Source: Myxococcales bacterium
Lineage (GTDB): Bacteria > Myxococcota > Myxococcia > Myxococcales > JAJYLH01
Direction: 5' to 3'
Assembly (NCBI GenBank): GCA_021787845.1
Contig: JAJYLH010000025.1
Coordinates: forward strand, 1-64,000
Length of the DNA: 64,000 bases
The notes below the pieces were generated by a model. It saw only the letters and a program-made list of their open reading frames with translations. It had not been told where the DNA came from and made no database searches. Position numbers and translations under genes: made by a program. Positions 3,832 to 52,959 of this stretch are shown piece by piece (positions within the stretch are counted from its first letter, which is position 1; the number at the start of each line of letters is the position of its first letter).

Positions 3832-4989
3832 CTACCAGCTCTGCCGGATCAGCGCCCGGAAATCGTCGGCGCCGCAGGGTCGCGGGTTGGTCTGGTGACG
3901 CGCGTCCTCCAGCGCCTTGCCGACCAGCGCCGGAATCATCTCCTCGCGCACCCCGTGCTGCGAGAGCCCGCCGCTCAGGCCGATGTCCTCCTTGAGGCCC
4001 CTCACCAGCTCCACCACCGCCGCCGCCCGCTCGACCGCCGAGGCCCGCGCGTCGAACCCCAGCGCCACCGCCAGGTCCGCCAGCCGCTCCTGCGCCTGGT
4101 CGCGGTTGAACGCCAGCACCGCCGGGAGCACCAGCGCGTTCGCGTGCCCGTGGTGCATCCCCGCGACCGCGGTGAGCGCCTGCGCCAAGGAGTGCGCCGC
4201 CCCCAAGCCCTTCTGCATCGCGATGGCGCCCATGCTCGACGCGAGCAGCATCTCTTCCCGCGCTTGCAGGTCGTTCTGCCCGTCCTTCACCGCCCGCCGG
4301 AGGAACCGGGCGACCCGCGCGGTGCCCCCGAGCGCCATCGCGTCCGCGAACGGATGGTTCCTGAGAGCGATGTAGCTCTCCAGGTTGTGGGCGAGCGCGT
4401 CCATCCCGGTCGCCGCGGTGATGAAGGGCGGCAAGCCTTGCGTCAGCTCCGGGTCGAGCAGCGCCGCCTTCGCCAAGAGGTGCGGCGAGAAGAGCGTGGT
4501 CTTGCGCCGGGTGTCGTCGAGGAGGATGACGCTCGTGCGCGCGACCTCGCTCCCGGTGCCGGCGGTGGTGGGGATGGCGACGAGCGGCGGCAGGTGGGCG
4601 GTGACGTGCTGCTCGCCGCCCTGGGTCTCGTCGTAGCGGGAAATCGGCGGCGGGTGGTGGGTCATCAGCGCGATCGCCTTGGCGGCGTCGAGGGGGCTGC
4701 CGCCGCCCAAGCCGACGATGGCGTCGCAGCCGGCCGACCGGTACGCCTCGACACCTTCCCAGACGTTCTTCTCCACCGGGTTCGAGTCGACCCGCTCGAA
4801 GACCTGGAAGCGCGCCCCGGCGCTCTCCAGCACCTGGGCCACGGTCCTGGCGATGCCAGCGCCGACGACCCCGCGGTCGACCACGACGAGCGGCCGCTTC
4901 GCCCCGACGTTCTCGAGCTCGGCCGGCAGCTCCCGCACGCAGCCCGCGCCGAACAGCACCCGCGTCGGGAAGCTCATCAGGTGCGACAT
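3832..4989 (-). CDS. Iron-containing alcohol dehydrogenase
   Basis: 385 residues. Group III (Fe-ADH) fold: the NAD(P)-binding half carries GLGGGSPLDAAKA and PTTAGTGSEV. The metal-binding half carries D-x3-H in GMDALAHNLESY and two further His in AAHSLAQA and GMHHGHANA, the expected metal ligands. Length is typical of the family (380-390). The start was chosen because GAGGAGG lies six bases upstream of this ATG; the open frame extends far upstream but without family similarity. It probably interconverts an alcohol and an aldehyde with NAD(P)H in the cytoplasm; the substrate cannot be read from sequence. It is divergent from the two-component genes across a roughly 300-base gap. Confidence 0.9.
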   Translation of the reverse strand: MSHLMSFPTRVLFGAGCVRELPAELENVGAKRPLVVVDRGVVGAGIARTVAQVLESAGARFQVFERVDSNPVEKNVWEGVEAYRSAGCDAIVGLGGGSPLDAAKAIALMTHHPPPISRYDETQGGEQHVTAHLPPLVAIPTTAGTGSEVARTSVILLDDTRRKTTLFSPHLLAKAALLDPELTQGLPPFITAATGMDALAHNLESYIALRNHPFADAMALGGTARVARFLRRAVKDGQNDLQAREEMLLASSMGAIAMQKGLGAAHSLAQALTAVAGMHHGHANALVLPAVLAFNRDQAQERLADLAVALGFDARASAVERAAAVVELVRGLKEDIGLSGGLSQHGVREEMIPALVGKALEDARHQTNPRPCGADDFRALIRQSW

Positions 4990-5291
4990 CCGTTCCTCCT
5001 CGAAGCTCGGCCAGGCTCCCGCGAGGAACCCGCTCCTCCTCGGCTTTCGTCGAGGGAGCCCGAGCCGCCGAAGCTGGCACGCCTTTCGCGGACGCCGCAA
5101 GCGTTCGAGGACCGGGATGGGCCGCGCGTCCGGCTTTCCGTTCGCTCGCGGCGCGTGTCGAGGCACGATCGGGCGAGGCGGCCGCCCCCGCGTATCGACG
5201 GTCGCGCGGGCGTGGTTCAGAAGATCGAGAGTGCTGCCGACCTGGGAATCGGCTGCGGGCTGGCGAACCCGGTCCGAACGAGGCATTGCGG
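4990..5291. other. Divergent intergenic region, nothing specific seen
   Basis: About 300 bases between two divergent genes. It must hold promoters for both the alcohol dehydrogenase and the two-component genes, but no convincing -35/-10 pair, riboswitch or repeat was recognised. Confidence 0.4.
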
Positions 5292-6380
5292 ATGGAACAT
5301 CGGATCTTGCTGGTCGACGACGAGCCGGCGAACCTGCACCTGCTGGAGAAGATGCTCGCGCCGACCGGGTGGCGCACCGCGCTCGCGAAGGACGGGCGGG
5401 AAGCGCTGGCGCTCGCGGACAAGACCCCGTTCGATCTGGTGCTGCTCGACGTGCGGATGCCGGACCTGGACGGCATCGACGTCCTCACCCACCTGCGGGC
5501 GCGGCCCGACTGGGTGCCGGTGATTCTCGTCACCGCGTCGAACACCCGCGAGGACCGCATCCGCGGCGCGGAGGCCGGCGCCGACGATTTCCTGGAGAAG
5601 CCGATCGACCTGCCGGTGCTGCTCGCGCGGGTGCGCACGCTCTTGAAGCTCAAGGAAACGCGCGAGCAGCTCGCCCAGCGCCACCAGGCGCTCCAGCGGA
5701 CCTTGGAGCGCGAGCAGGAGCTGACCGGGTTCATCGCCCACGACCTGAAGAACCCGCTGGCGGTGATGGCGACCAACATCGCTTTCGTAAAGCGGCAGCT
5801 CGCCCCGGGCTCGACGGCAGCGGAAGCGCTCGGCGACGCCGCCGACGCGGCTCAGCAGATGCTGCGGCTCATCGACAGCCTTCTCGCCGTGCGCAACGAC
5901 GACCATCTCGCCCCGCTGGTCGACCGGGTGGTGCTGGAGCGCCTCCTGGACGAGCTGTGCCACGCCCACCGGCGGGAGGCGGACGAGCGCGGCGTCGCGC
6001 TCGACCACGGGGTGGCGCCGGGCCTCGAGCTGAACGCGGACGGCTTCCTCTTGCGGCGCGTGTTGGACAACCTCGTCGAGAACGCGCTGCGCTACACGCC
6101 GGCGGGCGGCCGGATCCGGGTCGCCGCCAAAAGGGGAGCGGGACCGGTCCTGACTGTTTCGAACAGTGGGACGCCGATTCCGCCGGAGCATCGGGAGCGC
6201 ATCTTCGACAAGTTCGCGCGGCTCGACCCGACCGAGCACCGCGCGGGCCGTGGCCTCGGGCTCTATTTCGCGCGGCGGGTGGTCGAGGCCCACGGCGGCA
6301 CCATCCGGGTGGTCGAGGACCCCGAGTGGCCGACCCGGTTCGTCATCGAGCTGCCGGCGAGCGCCGAGGCCGCGCCATGA
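5292..6380 (+). CDS. Hybrid response regulator-histidine kinase (REC-HK)
   Basis: 362 residues, soluble, no transmembrane segment. An N-terminal receiver domain (1-118) has phosphoacceptor D53 in LLDVRMPD and K103 in LEKPID. A short coiled coil follows (about 120-145). The HisKA dimerisation helix has H150 in FIAHDLKNPLAVM. The HATPase domain has its N box near 255-270 (VLDNLVENALRYTP) and a G box GRGLGLYFARR. A TTG two codons upstream is an alternative start. The REC-first layout means the kinase is probably gated by phosphorylation from another kinase. The stop overlaps the ATG of the next gene (ATGA), so the two are translationally coupled and very likely act in one phosphorelay. Confidence 0.9.
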   Translation: MEHRILLVDDEPANLHLLEKMLAPTGWRTALAKDGREALALADKTPFDLVLLDVRMPDLDGIDVLTHLRARPDWVPVILVTASNTREDRIRGAEAGADDFLEKPIDLPVLLARVRTLLKLKETREQLAQRHQALQRTLEREQELTGFIAHDLKNPLAVMATNIAFVKRQLAPGSTAAEALGDAADAAQQMLRLIDSLLAVRNDDHLAPLVDRVVLERLLDELCHAHRREADERGVALDHGVAPGLELNADGFLLRRVLDNLVENALRYTPAGGRIRVAAKRGAGPVLTVSNSGTPIPPEHRERIFDKFARLDPTEHRAGRGLGLYFARRVVEAHGGTIRVVEDPEWPTRFVIELPASAEAAP

Positions 6381-9300
6381 GCGCCCGCTGGCAGCTCGTG
6401 CTCACCGCCCTGGCGGTGGCGATGCTCGTCCACCTGCGTTCGAGCTTCGATCAGCACGAAATGGAGCGCGTCATGCGCGAGCAGAGCGCGCAGGCGGAAC
6501 GCGGGCTCGCCATCGGCGAGGCGCTCAACGACGTCGCCCTGCACGCCCTCGACCTCGAGGCCGGCCTTCACGGATGGCTCGCGACCGGGCAGCGCTCGTT
6601 TCGCGAGTCGTGGGATCGGGACCGCGCCACGGTGGACTCGGACCTGGACCGGCTCTCCCGGGTCGAACGGAGCGACCCCCAGTCGGCCGCGCTGGTCCAC
6701 GAGGTGCGCTCGCAGCTTTCGGCCTGGATGAGCGGGGTGGCAGCGCCGCTGCTCACCATGAAGCCGGCGGAGCCCGAGTCTCCGGCGACGCTCGCGCTGC
6801 AGCTCGAAGGCAAGCGCGAGATGGATGCCGTGCGCGACGCCATCGCGCGCCTGCGCGCACACCTTCGCGCCCAGCACGCCGACGCGCACCGGGCGGCGCT
6901 CGCCGTCCTCGCGACCCAGAAACGGCACCGGACCGAAACCGAGCTCGGGGTCCTCGCCGCCATCGTCCTCGCGTTCGCCGGTGTCACCCTCACGCTCGAC
7001 CGGCCCCTCGCCAAGCTCGCCCGCCTCGCCACCCGCCGCGACCTGCCCGCGCTGCGCGACGTGAAGCTCCACGCGACGACCGAAGTGCGGCGCCTCGCGA
7101 AGGCGCTCAACGGCCTCGCCGAGCGGGTCCTCAGCCTGGAGAAGTACGGCGAGCGGCTCCTCGACCTGCGCGCCCTCATCTCGTCGACCGCGAGCGCCCC
7201 GGAGCTCGGCGAAAAGGGGCTGTCGCTCATCGCCACCGCTCACGCGGCCCGGGCCGGAGTCCTGTGGGTCGCGCCGAGCGACAGCGCTGCCCTGAAGCGG
7301 TTGGCCGTGTTCGGCCTGGATGCCGCGCGCCTGCCCGACTCGCCGCCGCCGGCGGTGCTCGACGCGCAAGCGAGCGGACGCGCGACGCGCCTGACGAGCG
7401 CAACGCCAGACCATCTGACCGTGCAGGGCACCTTCGCCGACGTCGCGCCGCGGGTCGTGCTCATCGCGCCGGTGGTGGCGGCTCCCTCCCATCGGGTGGT
7501 GGGCGTCGTCGAGCTGTCGAGCGCGGATCCGCAAGGCTTTCCCGACGACCTCTCCGGCGAGCTGTCGAGCCTCGCGATGTCGCTGGAGAAAGCGCTCGCG
7601 ACCGAGGAGATCGAGCGGCTGGGGCGGGTCATCGCGGACGAGCGGGCGCAGCTCAGGTCGATCTTCCACGCCCTCCCGGACGGCCTCGTGCTCCAGGGAC
7701 CCGACCGGCGCATCGAGCGGGCCAACCCGGCGGCCGAGGCGCTCCTGGGCCCGCTGAGGGGGGGAAGCGTCGACGATTTGTGGAAGCGCTTGCGGGTCAC
7801 GGGAGGGCAGTTGGAAGCCAGAGAGCCCTCGCAGCTCGAGAGCGGTTCGGTCCACCTGCGGGTCGACGCGCCGGCGGGACAGTCCCGGCTGATGCACGTG
7901 GTCTACGCGCCGGTGACGCGCGCCGACGGCAGCCGCAGCGGCCAGTTGATCGCCTCGATTCGGGACGAGACCGAGGACGCGAGGCTGCGCGAGCGGGTCA
8001 CCGCCCAGAACGAGGAGCTCCAGGCGCAGAACGAGGAGCTGCGCGCGCAGGAAGAGGAGCTTCGGGCGCAGTCGGTCGAGCTCGCCCGCGCGTCCAACGC
8101 GAAGAGCGATTTTCTCGCGACCATGTCGCACGAGCTGCGGACGCCCCTGAACGCCATCCTCGGCTTCTCCGAGCTCTTGCTCTCGAACCCGGGCGCCGGC
8201 GACCAGGCGCGGGGGGCGCTCGCCGACATCCACGCGGCGGGGCAGCAGCTCCTGCTCCTCATCAACGAGGTGCTCGACCTCTCGAAGATCGAGTCGGGAC
8301 GGCTGGACTTGCATCCCGCGGTCGTCCGCCTTTGCGAGCCCGCCTCGCAGGCGCTCGCCTTCGTCGCGCCGGCCGCGCAGAAGAAGCGCCTCGCGATGGA
8401 GTCCAGCATCGCTCCCGAGCTGTTCGTCGAAGGCGACCCCGACCGGCTCCGGCAGGTGCTGACGAACCTGCTCTCCAACGCGGTCAAGTTCACGCCCGAC
8501 GGCGGTCGGGTCGCGCTGACGGGGGTCCCCGAGGGGGAGCGGCTGCGCGTGTCGGTCCAGGATAGCGGCATCGGTATCGGCAAGGAGCAGCAGTCCCGCC
8601 TCTTCGAACCGTTCACGCAGCTCGAGACTGGTACCGCACGGCATTACGGCGGGACGGGCCTCGGGCTCGCCATCTCGCGGCGGCTGGTTCGCGCGATGGG
8701 CGGGGAGATCGGCGTCGAGAGCGAACGGGGCCAGGGCTCGACGTTCTTCTTCACGCTCCCTTGGGCGTCCGCCCCGAGCGAGCCGGCCGGCCATTCGGCG
8801 CCCGCGACCGGCGCGGGCGATCGCATGTCCGCGCTGCCATCGGGAGAGCCGTCACGGGGGCGCCCGCGGCTGCTTCTGGTCGAGGACGAGGAGCCGGCCC
8901 GCCGGATGGTGGCGACCAGCCTTTCGGCGGCCGGGTTCGAGGTGGAAGAGGCCGCCAGCGGCGAGGACGCGCTCTTGGCGTTCGAACGCTCCCCGCCAGC
9001 GGTGCTGCTGGTCGACCTGGGCTTGCCGGGCCTGGGCGGGCGCGAGCTCATCGAGGGGGTGCGAGCGACAGGGCGCGGCCGGGCGGTGTCGGTGGTGGTG
9101 CTGACCGGCCAGGACCTGGAGGGCGAGGAGCGGGTCTCGCTCGAACGGCTCGCCGACCTGGTGGTGCAGAAGGGCGCGGTGTCGCGGGCGGACTTCGTCG
9201 AACGGCTGCGCCGGCTTTCGCAGGAGGGCAGGAGCGGTCCCAAGCGGCTCGCGATCCTGGTGGTCGACGACAGCGCGCAGAACCGCCGGGTCGAGCGGGC

Positions 9301-46420: not shown

Positions 46421-48031
46421 ATGTCCGCGCCGGCCCGCCGCCCTGGCTCAGCGCTCCTGCCCTTCGCCGCCGCTCTCGGCCTCGCGCTCATCCCTTGCGC
46501 CTACACGCCGCTCAATTCCGACCTCGGTTGGACCCTGCGCGAGGGCCAGCGGATCGTCCTGCACGGCGCCATCGCCACCCGCAACGCGCTCTCCTTCACC
46601 GACCCGCGGCACCCGGTGATTTCGTACCAGTGGCTCTTCTCGGCGCTCGCGTATCTCGTGCACCGCTCCCAAGGGGCAGCAGGGCTCATCCTCCTCAAGT
46701 GGCTGACGCTCTTCGTGACGGTGGCGGCGATGGCCGGGGCGGTCTCGGCGGTGGCGAAGCACCCGCTCGCGCGGCTCGTGGCGCTGGGGGTGACGGCGCC
46801 GCTGCTTGGCGCGGGCCTGCTCTTCGTGCGCTCGCAGATGTTCACCTACGCCTTCGTCCCGCTGGTCGCGTGGGCGGTGCTCTCGGAGAAGCGCTGGGCG
46901 CTCTGGGCGCTCGTGCCGCTCCTCGCGCTGTGGGCGAACCTGCACGGCGGGTTCATGCTCGGGCTAGCGCTGGTCTTCGCGATGAGCGGGGCGCTCTGGC
47001 TCGAGTCGCGGTCGATCTTCGAATGGCGGCAGCTTGTTCCCCGGCGCCTCAGAGTGCCTGGGCGATCGGGCCGGGGGACCAGCCCGCGCCTCCCGGAGCC
47101 GATGGAGGGCAGGAGCGCTCTTCCAACACGCGAGCTCGTGGCGATTCCCGTTGCCGCCGCGCTGGCGACCTTGGCGAACCCGTTCGGCTGGCGGCTGCAC
47201 CTCGCGGCGATCGCGTTGACGCGCGATCCCGGGCGCTCGCTCGACCACGAGTGGACGCCCTTGTGGCGGCTGCACGCTCTGATTCCCGCGGAATGGGAAG
47301 CGCTGGCGGTGCTGGTGCTCGCCCTGGCGCTGGCGCTGGTCTTCCTGCCGAAGACGAAGCTGCGGCTGTGGGTGCTCTGTGCGCTGCTCGTCCTGACGCC
47401 GACGGCGGAGCGCCATCTGCGGCTCGTGCCGGTGCTGGCGGCGCCGGTTCTCGCGGCGGCGTTCGAGACGGCCATCGCGCGCGCGAGCGACAAGCTGCGC
47501 GACCAGCTCGTACGGCCGGTGATGCTCGCGTCGGTCGCGGTGGCGGTGGCGACCTTCGCGCTCTTCGCAACGAGCCTCCCGCGCTCGTTGCGCTTCCACG
47601 GATTCCCGCCGCCGAACCCCGCGCCGGCGATCGACGTGCTGCGGCTGAACCACCTCAGCGGCAACGTCTGGAACGACTTCAACTGGGGTGGCCTCCTGCA
47701 ATGGGCGGCGCCCGAGGTGCGCGTCGCGTGCGACGGCCGGTTCGACCAGGCCTACTCGGAGCGCGTGCGCCGCGAGGTGATGCGGTTCGGCTACGACGAC
47801 CGCGATCCGCTGCGGACGCTCGAACGGTACGGCGCGGACCTGGTGCTGCTGCCGGCGACCAACCCGGCGATCGCGCTCATCGCGAACACCTACCGACCGC
47901 TCTACTGCGGCGAGGGCGTGTGCCTGCTGTCGCGCCGCGCGGACCAGCTCGCCCTCGCCGAGCACGGCCTCCTCAGGCTCCCGCCGGCACGCTCGACGCC
48001 CGAGAGCTTCTTCGACGCGCCGAACCCGTAG
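46421..48031 (+). CDS. Polytopic membrane protein, GT-C glycosyltransferase-like
   Basis: 536 residues. Around ten hydrophobic helices. The first extracytoplasmic loop has the GT-C-like pattern LNSDLGWTLREGQRIVLHG followed by ALSFTDPRHPVISYQWL, the layout of membrane glycosyltransferases where D-x-G-W precedes the catalytic region. ANLHGGFMLGLAL and a soluble C-terminal domain (about 400-536; SGNVWNDFNWGGLLQW, VACDGRFDQAYSE) are also typical of a widespread uncharacterised family. Residues about 205-235 form an Arg/Pro/Gly-rich insert coded by repeat-like DNA. Probably a polyprenyl-phosphate-sugar-dependent transferase, but substrate and even activity are inferred. Confidence 0.7.
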   Translation: MSAPARRPGSALLPFAAALGLALIPCAYTPLNSDLGWTLREGQRIVLHGAIATRNALSFTDPRHPVISYQWLFSALAYLVHRSQGAAGLILLKWLTLFVTVAAMAGAVSAVAKHPLARLVALGVTAPLLGAGLLFVRSQMFTYAFVPLVAWAVLSEKRWALWALVPLLALWANLHGGFMLGLALVFAMSGALWLESRSIFEWRQLVPRRLRVPGRSGRGTSPRLPEPMEGRSALPTRELVAIPVAAALATLANPFGWRLHLAAIALTRDPGRSLDHEWTPLWRLHALIPAEWEALAVLVLALALALVFLPKTKLRLWVLCALLVLTPTAERHLRLVPVLAAPVLAAAFETAIARASDKLRDQLVRPVMLASVAVAVATFALFATSLPRSLRFHGFPPPNPAPAIDVLRLNHLSGNVWNDFNWGGLLQWAAPEVRVACDGRFDQAYSERVRREVMRFGYDDRDPLRTLERYGADLVLLPATNPAIALIANTYRPLYCGEGVCLLSRRADQLALAEHGLLRLPPARSTPESFFDAPNP

Positions 48032-48264
48032 AAACGAGGTCTCGGTCGAACCGAAAAAAGGGCCCGGATCGTCCGCCGAGGCTCCCGGTCGATTGAAAAG
48101 AGGTCGCTTTCTCTCCGCCGAGGCTTCCGGTCGACCGAAAAGAGGTCACTTTCTCTCCGCCGAGGCTCCCGGTCGACCGAAAAGAGGTCACTTTCTCTCC
48201 GCCGAAGCCTCCGGTCGATGAAAAACAGCGTCCGATCGATGTGCCGAACCCTCCGGACCATCAT
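47902..48264 (-). CDS. Hypothetical 14-residue-repeat peptide downstream of the radical SAM gene (doubtful)
   Basis: An open frame of 120 codons starting with ATG ATG, 60 bases beyond the stop of the twin radical-SAM gene and on the same strand. It encodes three near-perfect copies of a 14-residue unit, RRRESDLFSVDREP, with only Ile/Val and Glu/Lys exchanges. Repeated cores next to a radical SAM enzyme recall ribosomal peptide precursors. Against it: no ribosome-binding site, the last ~50 codons overlap the 3' end of the convergent membrane-protein gene, and a second minus-strand frame is also open through the same repeat. I list it only as a candidate. Confidence 0.2.
   Translation of the reverse strand: MMVRRVRHIDRTLFFIDRRLRRRESDLFSVDREPRRRESDLFSVDRKPRRRESDLFSIDREPRRTIRALFSVRPRPRFYGFGASKKLSGVERAGGSLRRPCSARASWSARRDSRHTPSPQ
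48068..48230. repeat. 42-base tandem repeat (three and a half copies)
   Basis: Units starting GCCGAGGCTCCCGGTCGA occur at about 48075, 48117, 48159 and 48201 with a strict 42-base period; the last is partial and diverged. Because 42 is a multiple of three, two minus-strand frames are open through the array, one coding for repeated RRESDLFSVDREP, the other for EKVTSFRSTGSLGG. A flanking region of GATCGATCG-rich sequence follows. Confidence 0.85.
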
Positions 48265-48323: not shown

Positions 48324-50132
48324 TCAGAGCTCCGGTCGAGCCGCATGGATCGGTCGCAGCTCGCAGGCACCGTAGAGATCTACGTAGCCGCGGCGAACGC
48401 CGAAGCAGGTATCGCGGCGCTCGCAGCCGGCACAGATCTCAGGCTGGACGAACTCGCCCCGGCCCACGTCCGGGGCCAGCGTCACGCTCGGCCAGAGGTG
48501 CGAGAGGCTCTCTGGAATCAGGCATGCGGGGATGCCGCACATCGTGTCCAGGCCGCCGATCGAGAGTTCCTTGACCTCGGCCCGGCGCAGCCCTTCCGCG
48601 AGCGCGGGAAGCATCTCTGAATAGGACGGGATGAGCTCTCGCGAGGCCGGCACGACGTCGCTCGAGCGCGCGACGAAGCTCAGCACGAGCTCCACCGTCG
48701 GCCAGCGGCGCGCAACGAAATCGACATGGTCGGGAAACGCCGCGAAGTTCTGACGGCAGAATACGAAGTTCAGTCGGACCATGGCTCCGGTGGCGACGGC
48801 GCGGTCGATACCGAGGACGGTGCGCTCGAAAGTGCCCGGCGCGCCGGTGATGGCATCGGAGATCGCCGCCGTGGGGCCGTGCAGCGAGATGAAGAAATGC
48901 GTCACGCCCGCCGCGACCAGAGTATCGGCGAGCGGCGGTTCGGCCAGGCGGACCGCATTGGTCTGCAGATCGATCACCGGCGCGCCCCGGTTCTTGGCGA
49001 GGCGAACGAAGTCGACGAGGCGCGGGTTCAAGGTCGGCTCGCCGCCGGAAAGGATCACCGGCCGGCCCTTCGAGGCGATGTCGGAAATCGCGGTCTCGAT
49101 GGCGCGGGTCGGCGCGGCCGGCAGATGCGTCGAGACAAAGCAGAACGCGCAGGCCTGGTTGCAGGCGAAGTTGATGCGAACGATGCGCGGCTGGCTCTCG
49201 CCGGTCGATCGCTCGACCTCGTCTTGGACCAGCTCGGCCGCGACCTGGGCGTCGATGTCCGTTGGGGTCGAGAAGCGGCGGCGAAGCGCGTCCGATGCGA
49301 TCGGGTCGACGCGCGGCTCGGGATGGCGGTCGAGCGCGCCGCTCGGAAACCCCGGACAGCGGTCGCGCAGTCGGCAGGCGTCGCAGGCGGCGACGCGGCG
49401 AAAACCCGGTCGCTCAGAGCCCCCAGGCGTCAGGCGGAACAGGTGCGCGAGCCGTCCGGGGGCCGGCAGCAGACAAGGAGGAACAGCCGCATCCTCGGCG
49501 AGGCTCGTCCGGAGCCCGGCCCGCCGCGCGGCGGCCTCGGCGGCGATGAGCGTTGCTGCCGCGGTCTCGGGGTCCAGGAGCTCGCCGGGCGCCGGCCCCG
49601 ACGTGGGCCAGCAGAGAATCCATTGCCGGACCGGGAGCGCGCTTTCCGCGAGCTGCTGGGGCAGCGACGCGATCTGCGGAGCGACGCGGCGGACCAGCGG
49701 CGTCGCGACTTCCAATTCGATGCCCCCCTCGGTCAAGGCGCGCATCCCGGCAAGCGCCGCGGGAAAGCTGCCGGGATCCCGAGTCACCGATTCGTAGACG
49801 CTCGCCCATCCGGGAAGATGGACCCGTGCGAGACCGAGCCCCGCCTCGCGAAGTCGCGCGGCCCGGCCGGCATCGATGAGCGTCGCGTTGGTCTCGAGAA
49901 CCACCCGGCCGGCGCCGAGCTCCCGCGCGGCTCGCACCAGCGATGGCAAGTCTCGACGCAGCGTCGGCTCGCCGCCCGTGAGGACCAGCGTCTGTGCGCC
50001 TCGCGCCTCCACGAGCCGAGCGAGCACTCGCGAGCGAGCGACGAGCTCCGGGTCCTCCGCCGGCCGCCGCGCGTCGCAGAACGCGCAATTCTGGTTGCAC
50101 GTCTGGTTCGTGATCACCCGGAGCGTTCGCAT
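48324..50132 (-). CDS. Twin radical SAM protein with SPASM/twitch-like cysteine sets
   Basis: 602 residues containing two complete radical SAM halves in one chain. Half one has C12-x3-C16-x2-C19 (CNQNCAFC), GGEP at 53-56, and a C-terminal CxxC-x5-C set (C250, C253, C259). Half two has C324-x3-C328-x2-C331 (CNQACAFC), GGEP at 363-366, and ICAGCERRDTCFG near the C-terminus. Each half thus has the SAM-cluster site plus Cys that could hold an auxiliary [4Fe-4S] cluster, as in SPASM/twitch enzymes. The start ATG begins exactly at the first conserved block. Not recognised as a named enzyme. Function may be peptide modification or cofactor synthesis; no obvious partner enzyme is adjacent. Confidence 0.88.
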   Translation of the reverse strand: MRTLRVITNQTCNQNCAFCDARRPAEDPELVARSRVLARLVEARGAQTLVLTGGEPTLRRDLPSLVRAARELGAGRVVLETNATLIDAGRAARLREAGLGLARVHLPGWASVYESVTRDPGSFPAALAGMRALTEGGIELEVATPLVRRVAPQIASLPQQLAESALPVRQWILCWPTSGPAPGELLDPETAAATLIAAEAAARRAGLRTSLAEDAAVPPCLLPAPGRLAHLFRLTPGGSERPGFRRVAACDACRLRDRCPGFPSGALDRHPEPRVDPIASDALRRRFSTPTDIDAQVAAELVQDEVERSTGESQPRIVRINFACNQACAFCFVSTHLPAAPTRAIETAISDIASKGRPVILSGGEPTLNPRLVDFVRLAKNRGAPVIDLQTNAVRLAEPPLADTLVAAGVTHFFISLHGPTAAISDAITGAPGTFERTVLGIDRAVATGAMVRLNFVFCRQNFAAFPDHVDFVARRWPTVELVLSFVARSSDVVPASRELIPSYSEMLPALAEGLRRAEVKELSIGGLDTMCGIPACLIPESLSHLWPSVTLAPDVGRGEFVQPEICAGCERRDTCFGVRRGYVDLYGACELRPIHAARPEL

Positions 50133-50328
50133 CGCCCGAGGCGACGCTAGCTCGAAGCCGACGCGACTGTCGAACGCCGGCCGTGCCTCGGCTCGCCAGG
50201 GCGCCGCGAGCCTCGAGACGGCAGGGCTTTCAAGGTGCGAGCGAGCGAAAAACGCTCGTCCTGAGCGGTCATCCTGAGCGCCAGTCGAAGGACGCATGCC
50301 TATCCGGTTGACGCACTTGCCCGATGTT

Positions 50329-50401
50329 GGAGCCGGACACGTCAGTGTCCGGGTCTGCCCGGGACGTCGTGCCCGACCCGGACACTGACGTGTCCGGCTC
50401 C
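50329..50401. repeat. Perfect inverted repeat, GGAGCCGGACACGT family
   Basis: Arms of 26 bases (50329-50354 and 50376-50401) are perfectly complementary, with a 21-base loop that itself contains CCCGGGACGTCGTGCCCG. Each arm also contains the near-palindrome CCGGACACGTCAGTGTCCGG. Single or half copies of the same sequence appear near 574-600, 46070, 46195 and 58922. Confidence 0.85.
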
Positions 50402-50427
50402 AGGTCCAATTCCAAGCGCGCCAACGA

Positions 50428-50640: not shown

Positions 50641-52959
<2,319 letters not shown>

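Follow-up and report, generated by a model that had tools for sequence, protein, structure and literature searches.

A two-module radical-SAM protein as a probable maturase of extended His-Xaa-Ser peptide systems

The locus described here raises the question to which pathway a protein with two radical-SAM modules in a single chain belongs, and what each of its halves would do there. The gene, T1 (protein P0001; 48324..50132 on the minus strand, stop included), encodes 602 amino acids and is located in the window, which is the whole 64,000-bp stretch of Myxococcales contig JAJYLH010000025.1 that was analysed. Its open frame starts from the ATG at 50132, with orthologues aligning from residue 1, and a single gene was called at the locus by a simple self-trained codon gene finder. 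T1 is flanked by a plus-strand gene for a membrane protein (46421-48031) and a minus-strand gene for a malic-enzyme/phosphotransacetylase-like protein (50641-52959), both named by eye and neither similar to a radical-SAM system. Among the window genes of at least 150 aa, T1 ranks last in codon score per residue (z of about -2.2), and its GC3 is 0.84 versus a mean of 0.92; the codon score hints at a history unlike that of the neighbouring genes.

Two modules with auxiliary-type cysteine sets

Enzymes of the radical-SAM superfamily cleave SAM reductively at a CxxxCxxC motif and abstract hydrogen. T1 belongs to this superfamily by its Pfam-recognised core, Radical_SAM (PF04055) matching two stretches with 122 bits (cut-off 29.5), and by the presence of CxxxCxxC and GGEP in both halves. 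The N-terminal module, delimited with Pfam and alignments (residues 1-285; 49278..50132, minus strand as all features of T1), carries CNQNCAFC (residues 12-19, with C12, C16 and C19; 50076..50099), GGEP (residues 53-56; 49965..49976), a PPC motif that is invariant in the orthologues and whose C220 is a putative fourth auxiliary ligand (residues 218-220; 49473..49481), and CxxC-x5-C (residues 250-259, with C250, C253 and C259; 49356..49385). The C-terminal module, delimited from alignments and a structure model (residues 305-602; 48327..49220), displays the same order of CxxxCxxC, GGEP, P-x-C and CxxC-x5-C: CNQACAFC (residues 324-331, with C324, C328 and C331; 49140..49163), GGEP (residues 363-366; 49035..49046), an MCGxPxC motif, invariant in six orthologues, that comprises the extra conserved C532 together with C537 (48522..48539), and CxxC-x5-C (residues 567-576, with C567, C570 and C576; 48405..48434).

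Outside the window's genome (G000), orthologues were identified in genomes G091, G092 and G094, in the Polyangiaceae MAG OFTM3 (locus L033) and in a groundwater Deltaproteobacteria MAG (L034), the last with a frameshift between the halves. All listed cysteines and the GGEP of both halves are invariant in six T1 orthologues; since these are only 37-49% (N half) and 47-58% (C half) identical between lineages, the motif set is not a matter of chance. The sequence-only reading of this DNA, which had proposed two full radical-SAM modules with an auxiliary-type cysteine set in each, was thus correct in what it observed, and its interpretation is partly supported, as described below.

Across nine related modules the invariant cysteines are those of CxxxCxxC and CxxC-x5-C, and the PxC is present in eight of the nine. 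We take the CxxC-x5-C of T1 to resemble part of the SPASM signature, and the same reading had compared the C-terminal cysteines with SPASM or twitch domains. This comparison is borne out by shape and not by Pfam, as SPASM (PF13186) gave no match to either half at E≤1. An AlphaFold2 model of the C half (mean pLDDT 84.7, pTM 0.85), in which the region of the C-terminal cysteines is well modelled, aligns nearly end to end, up to its C-terminus, with the SPASM peptide maturases anSME (anSMEcpe, 4k38; Z 17.9, rmsd 3.5, 260 residues, model positions 8-290), SuiB (5v1s; Z 17.9, rmsd 3.9, 260 residues) and CteB (5why; Z 16.7, 254 residues), and with ChlB (9gm3; Z 16.7, 249 residues). The best structural match is viperin, with a Z of about 20, which covers the barrel. 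The likeness supports a SPASM/twitch-like nature of the C-terminal segment of the C half; T1 differs from the SPASM maturases in having one auxiliary-type cysteine set per module, duplicated modules and no Pfam SPASM match. Taken together, the cysteine sets and the modelled likeness make up to four iron-sulfur clusters per chain plausible. The full-length model is of moderate quality (pLDDT 71.6, pTM 0.54), and how the two halves lie with respect to each other was not read from it.

An old tandem family without a curated name

As the sequence-only reading had suspected, T1 falls into no named family: it remains far below the cut-off of every NCBIfam equivalog, with HxsC4 (NF038332) as the best match (150.3 bits, cut-off 500), and HxsC (TIGR03977) scores 114.2 bits (cut-off 267.9). 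Both models match each of the two halves. HxsC4 shares with T1 the C-terminal PxC...CxxC-x5-C set and an occurrence in His-Xaa-Ser (Hxs) systems; unlike T1, HxsC4 and HxsC are composed of a single module, and the true HxsC4 is a gene apart from T1 in the same genomes. A sequence search of the PDB returned no protein matching both halves, plasmid records yielded as best matches HxsC proteins with a single module, whose coverage of T1 stayed below 80% in every case, and no relative was found on viral contigs.

The two halves are 28% identical over 292 residues (E 1.5e-15), and their profiles match at 99.8% probability. The window's genome encodes two further full-length tandem relatives: a 638-aa protein on contig C19, whose N half lacks CxxxCxxC, and a protein on contig C40 (L010 8918-11878) of 986-1029 aa depending on the start, whose N half has GGTA and not GGEP. 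Another tandem paralogue, T2, is present in G092, G094 and L034. Every member of this family has an intact C half; degeneration of the N half was seen in two of the paralogues (C19 and C40). With at least three tandem proteins in the window's genome alone, the earlier statement that such enzymes are rare has to be qualified. When 39 modules were placed in a maximum-likelihood tree, one branch parted all N from all C halves (support 95/87), the split requiring one change versus a mean of 7.0 after shuffling. A recent internal duplication was rejected, as this one branch divides N from C halves in four paralogue groups. The two-module form therefore most likely arose once and then diversified, the halves most likely going back to one old duplication or fusion common to at least four tandem paralogues. 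The C-terminal extension of the C40 protein reads by eye as a GFO/IDH/MocA-like oxidoreductase.

Association with Hxs systems

T1 (E≤1e-45) was found in 4 of 195 Myxococcota genomes, among which HxsB is above its cut-off in 31 and HxsA4 in 15. All six T1 genomes, these four and two from another collection, possess HxsA4 and HxsB above the curated cut-offs, and the HxsA4 scores of the four T1 genomes are precisely the top four of the 195. The nominal chance that all four would fall among the 15 HxsA4 genomes is 2e-5, with three of them sharing one genus; counted by genus (two genera) it is about 0.02, and for four lineages at the genus rate about 4e-4. Some HxsA4 genomes are without T1, which therefore lies outside the Hxs core. 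Its membership of the Hxs system as an accessory is well supported.

The organization of the cluster is most clearly seen in G094, where an Hxs cluster of about 25 kb (contig C6, about 109.3-134.7 kb) encodes HxsA4 (100 bits, cut-off 55), HxsB (531, cut-off 370), HxsC4 (580, cut-off 500), HxsD (58, cut-off 50) and an HxsD-like protein (65, cut-off 41; all NCBIfam). It also contains T1, T2, a DUF483 protein, an 876-aa protein, a 654-aa protein that includes a SPASM stretch, and further radical-SAM proteins, two of which carry a methyltransferase or a peroxiredoxin domain as a fusion. The T1 block runs on unbroken into the Hxs genes. In total, 13 radical-SAM proteins with 16 Radical_SAM stretches (Pfam) are encoded within these 25 kb, a count from which the 876-aa protein was excluded, its radical-SAM matches being only marginal. 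The T1 orthologue of G092 is located in a cluster of the same kind. On contig JACPFM010000083.1 of the unrelated lineage L034, HxsC4, HxsA4, HxsB, HxsD-like and HxsD are found at 139.4-145.4 kb and T2, the 654-aa protein, a relative of the 876-aa protein and T1 at 155.2-163.1 kb (T1 at 161.3-163.1 kb), with HxsC4 60% and HxsB 65% identical to their G094 counterparts. T1 thus lies within about 20 kb of Hxs genes in this genome and in two genomes of one genus, so that two of the three cases of linkage to HxsA4 come from one genus; in these three of the six T1 genomes, T1 shares a cluster or contig with Hxs genes, HxsD included. No Hxs gene adjoins T1 in G091 or L033. On locus L028, within an Hxs cluster, radical-SAM genes are fused to an AhpC/TSA peroxiredoxin (6266-7765, minus strand) and to a methyltransferase domain (4479-6269, minus strand).

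A gene of the flavin-dependent tryptophan halogenase family (PF04820) was observed beside the Hxs cluster (L061 3713-5329, minus strand; also L030 9111-10706). It adjoins the cluster in G092 and G094 and is present on the Hxs contig in G091, and the HxsA4 of this genus ends in an invariant Trp. Flavin halogenation of this terminal Trp was considered as a core step and rejected, because the gene is absent from G000, G195 and G196; the halogenase is accordingly an accessory of one genus.

The search for a conserved small ORF near the tandem gene, proposed along with the first description of T1, had a mixed outcome: HxsA4 is found near T1 in orthologous loci, and no Hxs gene lies beside T1 in the window. 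Nearly every gene of the G094 cluster nevertheless has a reciprocal best hit in G000, on contigs C104, C58, C128, C35, C56, C3, C113 and C108. The genome also encodes HxsC4 (536 bits); T2 and the halogenase were not found. With its Hxs genes scattered over at least eight contigs, the window's genome thus has T1 as the lone local member of a dispersed system, and the system of the L033 genome is likewise dispersed.

HxsA4 consists of a short leader, a cysteine, a long run of His-Gly-Ser (HGS) triads (about 11 to 58 in the genomes examined) and a final Trp. The window's genome has two HxsA4 genes on C104 (L012 11357-11887 and 12203-12517, minus strand), encoding 58 and 34 HGS units, respectively, each with a terminal Trp; most other copies examined are much shorter. 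As read at loci L074, L075, L077, L078, L080 and L081, the leader is plain (non-Tat) in the T1 genomes and otherwise, among those examined, only in G163, and Tat-like (TRRDFL) in five other HxsA4 genomes, which suggests cytoplasmic and exported variants. A small protein of unknown family with a Tat-like signal adjoins a radical-SAM gene in G000 (L012 7793-8551, plus strand) and is conserved in the G094 cluster (L061 10432-10857, plus strand).

Proposed role and alternative explanations

Since T1 combines two radical-SAM sites with an occurrence alongside the Hxs system, it is probably one of the many maturation enzymes of this system, and we consider it a probable two-module maturase within a ribosomal-peptide system of the extended His-Xaa-Ser (HxsA4) type. 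HxsA4 as the direct substrate, the reaction itself and catalysis by both halves are what we infer. Each module would bind a SAM-cleaving [4Fe-4S] cluster via CxxxCxxC and probably one auxiliary cluster via PxC...CxxC-x5-C; the 5'-deoxyadenosyl radical would most likely take a hydrogen from an HGS-repeat side chain or at the leader junction of HxsA4, with the auxiliary cluster accepting the electron during formation of the new bond or oxidation. The main catalyst would probably be the C module, with the N module serving as a second site or as a substrate-holding copy. Characterised radical-SAM enzymes make i/i+2 links such as C2(His)-Cb(Ala) and C4(Phe)-Cb(Ser) (PMC11002830), so that a His(i)-Ser(i+2) cross-link in HGS is chemically plausible; by this analogy it may be formed within the Hxs system as a whole, by T1, HxsB or HxsC4, and T1 may instead do something else. 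HxsB and HxsC are themselves only putative maturases in the literature consulted (PMC9062424).

The division of labour between the halves admits a variant that is possible, if less probable, in which T1 acts in the Hxs system with the C module as sole catalyst and the N module as a decaying copy with a role in substrate binding or electron transfer. Faster evolution marks the N half, which has 45 positions invariant among orthologues versus 92 in the C half and the lower identity given above; its G091 version has a deletion of about 30 aa, and the C19 and C40 paralogues have lost its CxxxCxxC and GGEP, respectively. One half may therefore be non-catalytic, in contrast to the suggestion of the sequence-only reading that each half may perform a separate step; however, six T1 orthologues as well as T2 keep the N-half CxxxCxxC and GGEP/GGDP. 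The opposite case, in which both halves are active and T1 forms, with about 12 other radical-SAM proteins, an assembly line along the HGS repeats of HxsA4, is a doubtful extension. If true, HxsA4 would be among the most heavily radical-modified ribosomal peptides, and the two-site enzyme would act on neighbouring triads or perform two successive reactions.

Two further explanations place T1 outside peptide maturation by the Hxs system. FbiC (FO synthase) also holds two radical-SAM modules in one chain and uses two 5'-dA radicals (PMC11917521), and T1 could similarly be a two-step enzyme for a small molecule or cofactor, tied to Hxs indirectly, e.g. by supplying a cofactor to an Hxs enzyme; the solitary position of the window copy would fit, as would the presence in other T1 blocks of genes atypical of peptide maturation such as DUF483. 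We regard this as quite improbable, as the FbiC, CofG and CofH models are not among the best 25 of 62 NCBIfam matches to T1, the sub-threshold best matches include HxsC4 (first) and HxsC, SPASM peptide maturases figure among the structural matches, and in two lineages T1 and HxsA4 are physically linked. FbiC moreover makes a deazaflavin precursor, whereas T1 duplicates a single type of module, and both of its halves have an auxiliary cysteine set. It also seems unlikely that T1, T2, the 654-aa, 876-aa and DUF483 proteins constitute a separate pathway merely located beside the Hxs genes. They do form a block of their own in G092, G094 and L034, separated from the Hxs block by several unrelated genes in L034, and the 654-aa protein is restricted to G000, G092, G094 and G196; yet the T1 block showed no further precursor peptide, HxsA4 and HxsB accompany T1 in every genome, and the G094 block is continuous with the Hxs genes.

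With T1 as a probable Hxs maturase, an uncurated tandem radical-SAM family is added to a known kind of system, which can pack 13 radical-SAM proteins into 25 kb, and the family obtains a definite substrate candidate, (HGS)n-Trp. The literature searched held no paper describing HxsA4 or HxsC4, or solving His-Xaa-Ser chemistry. The question raised is whether one repeat peptide is modified twice by a two-site enzyme, and which half does what.

Two repeats border T1 in the window. Directly 3' of the gene, at 48035-48244, about four copies of a 42-bp tandem repeat are present, which were absent from the other loci examined. Between T1 and its upstream gene, at 50328-50402, a perfect 28-bp inverted repeat (GGAGCCGGACACG...) is found; because its core recurs in L009, L011 and L014, the repeat probably represents a dispersed REP-like element or a terminator.
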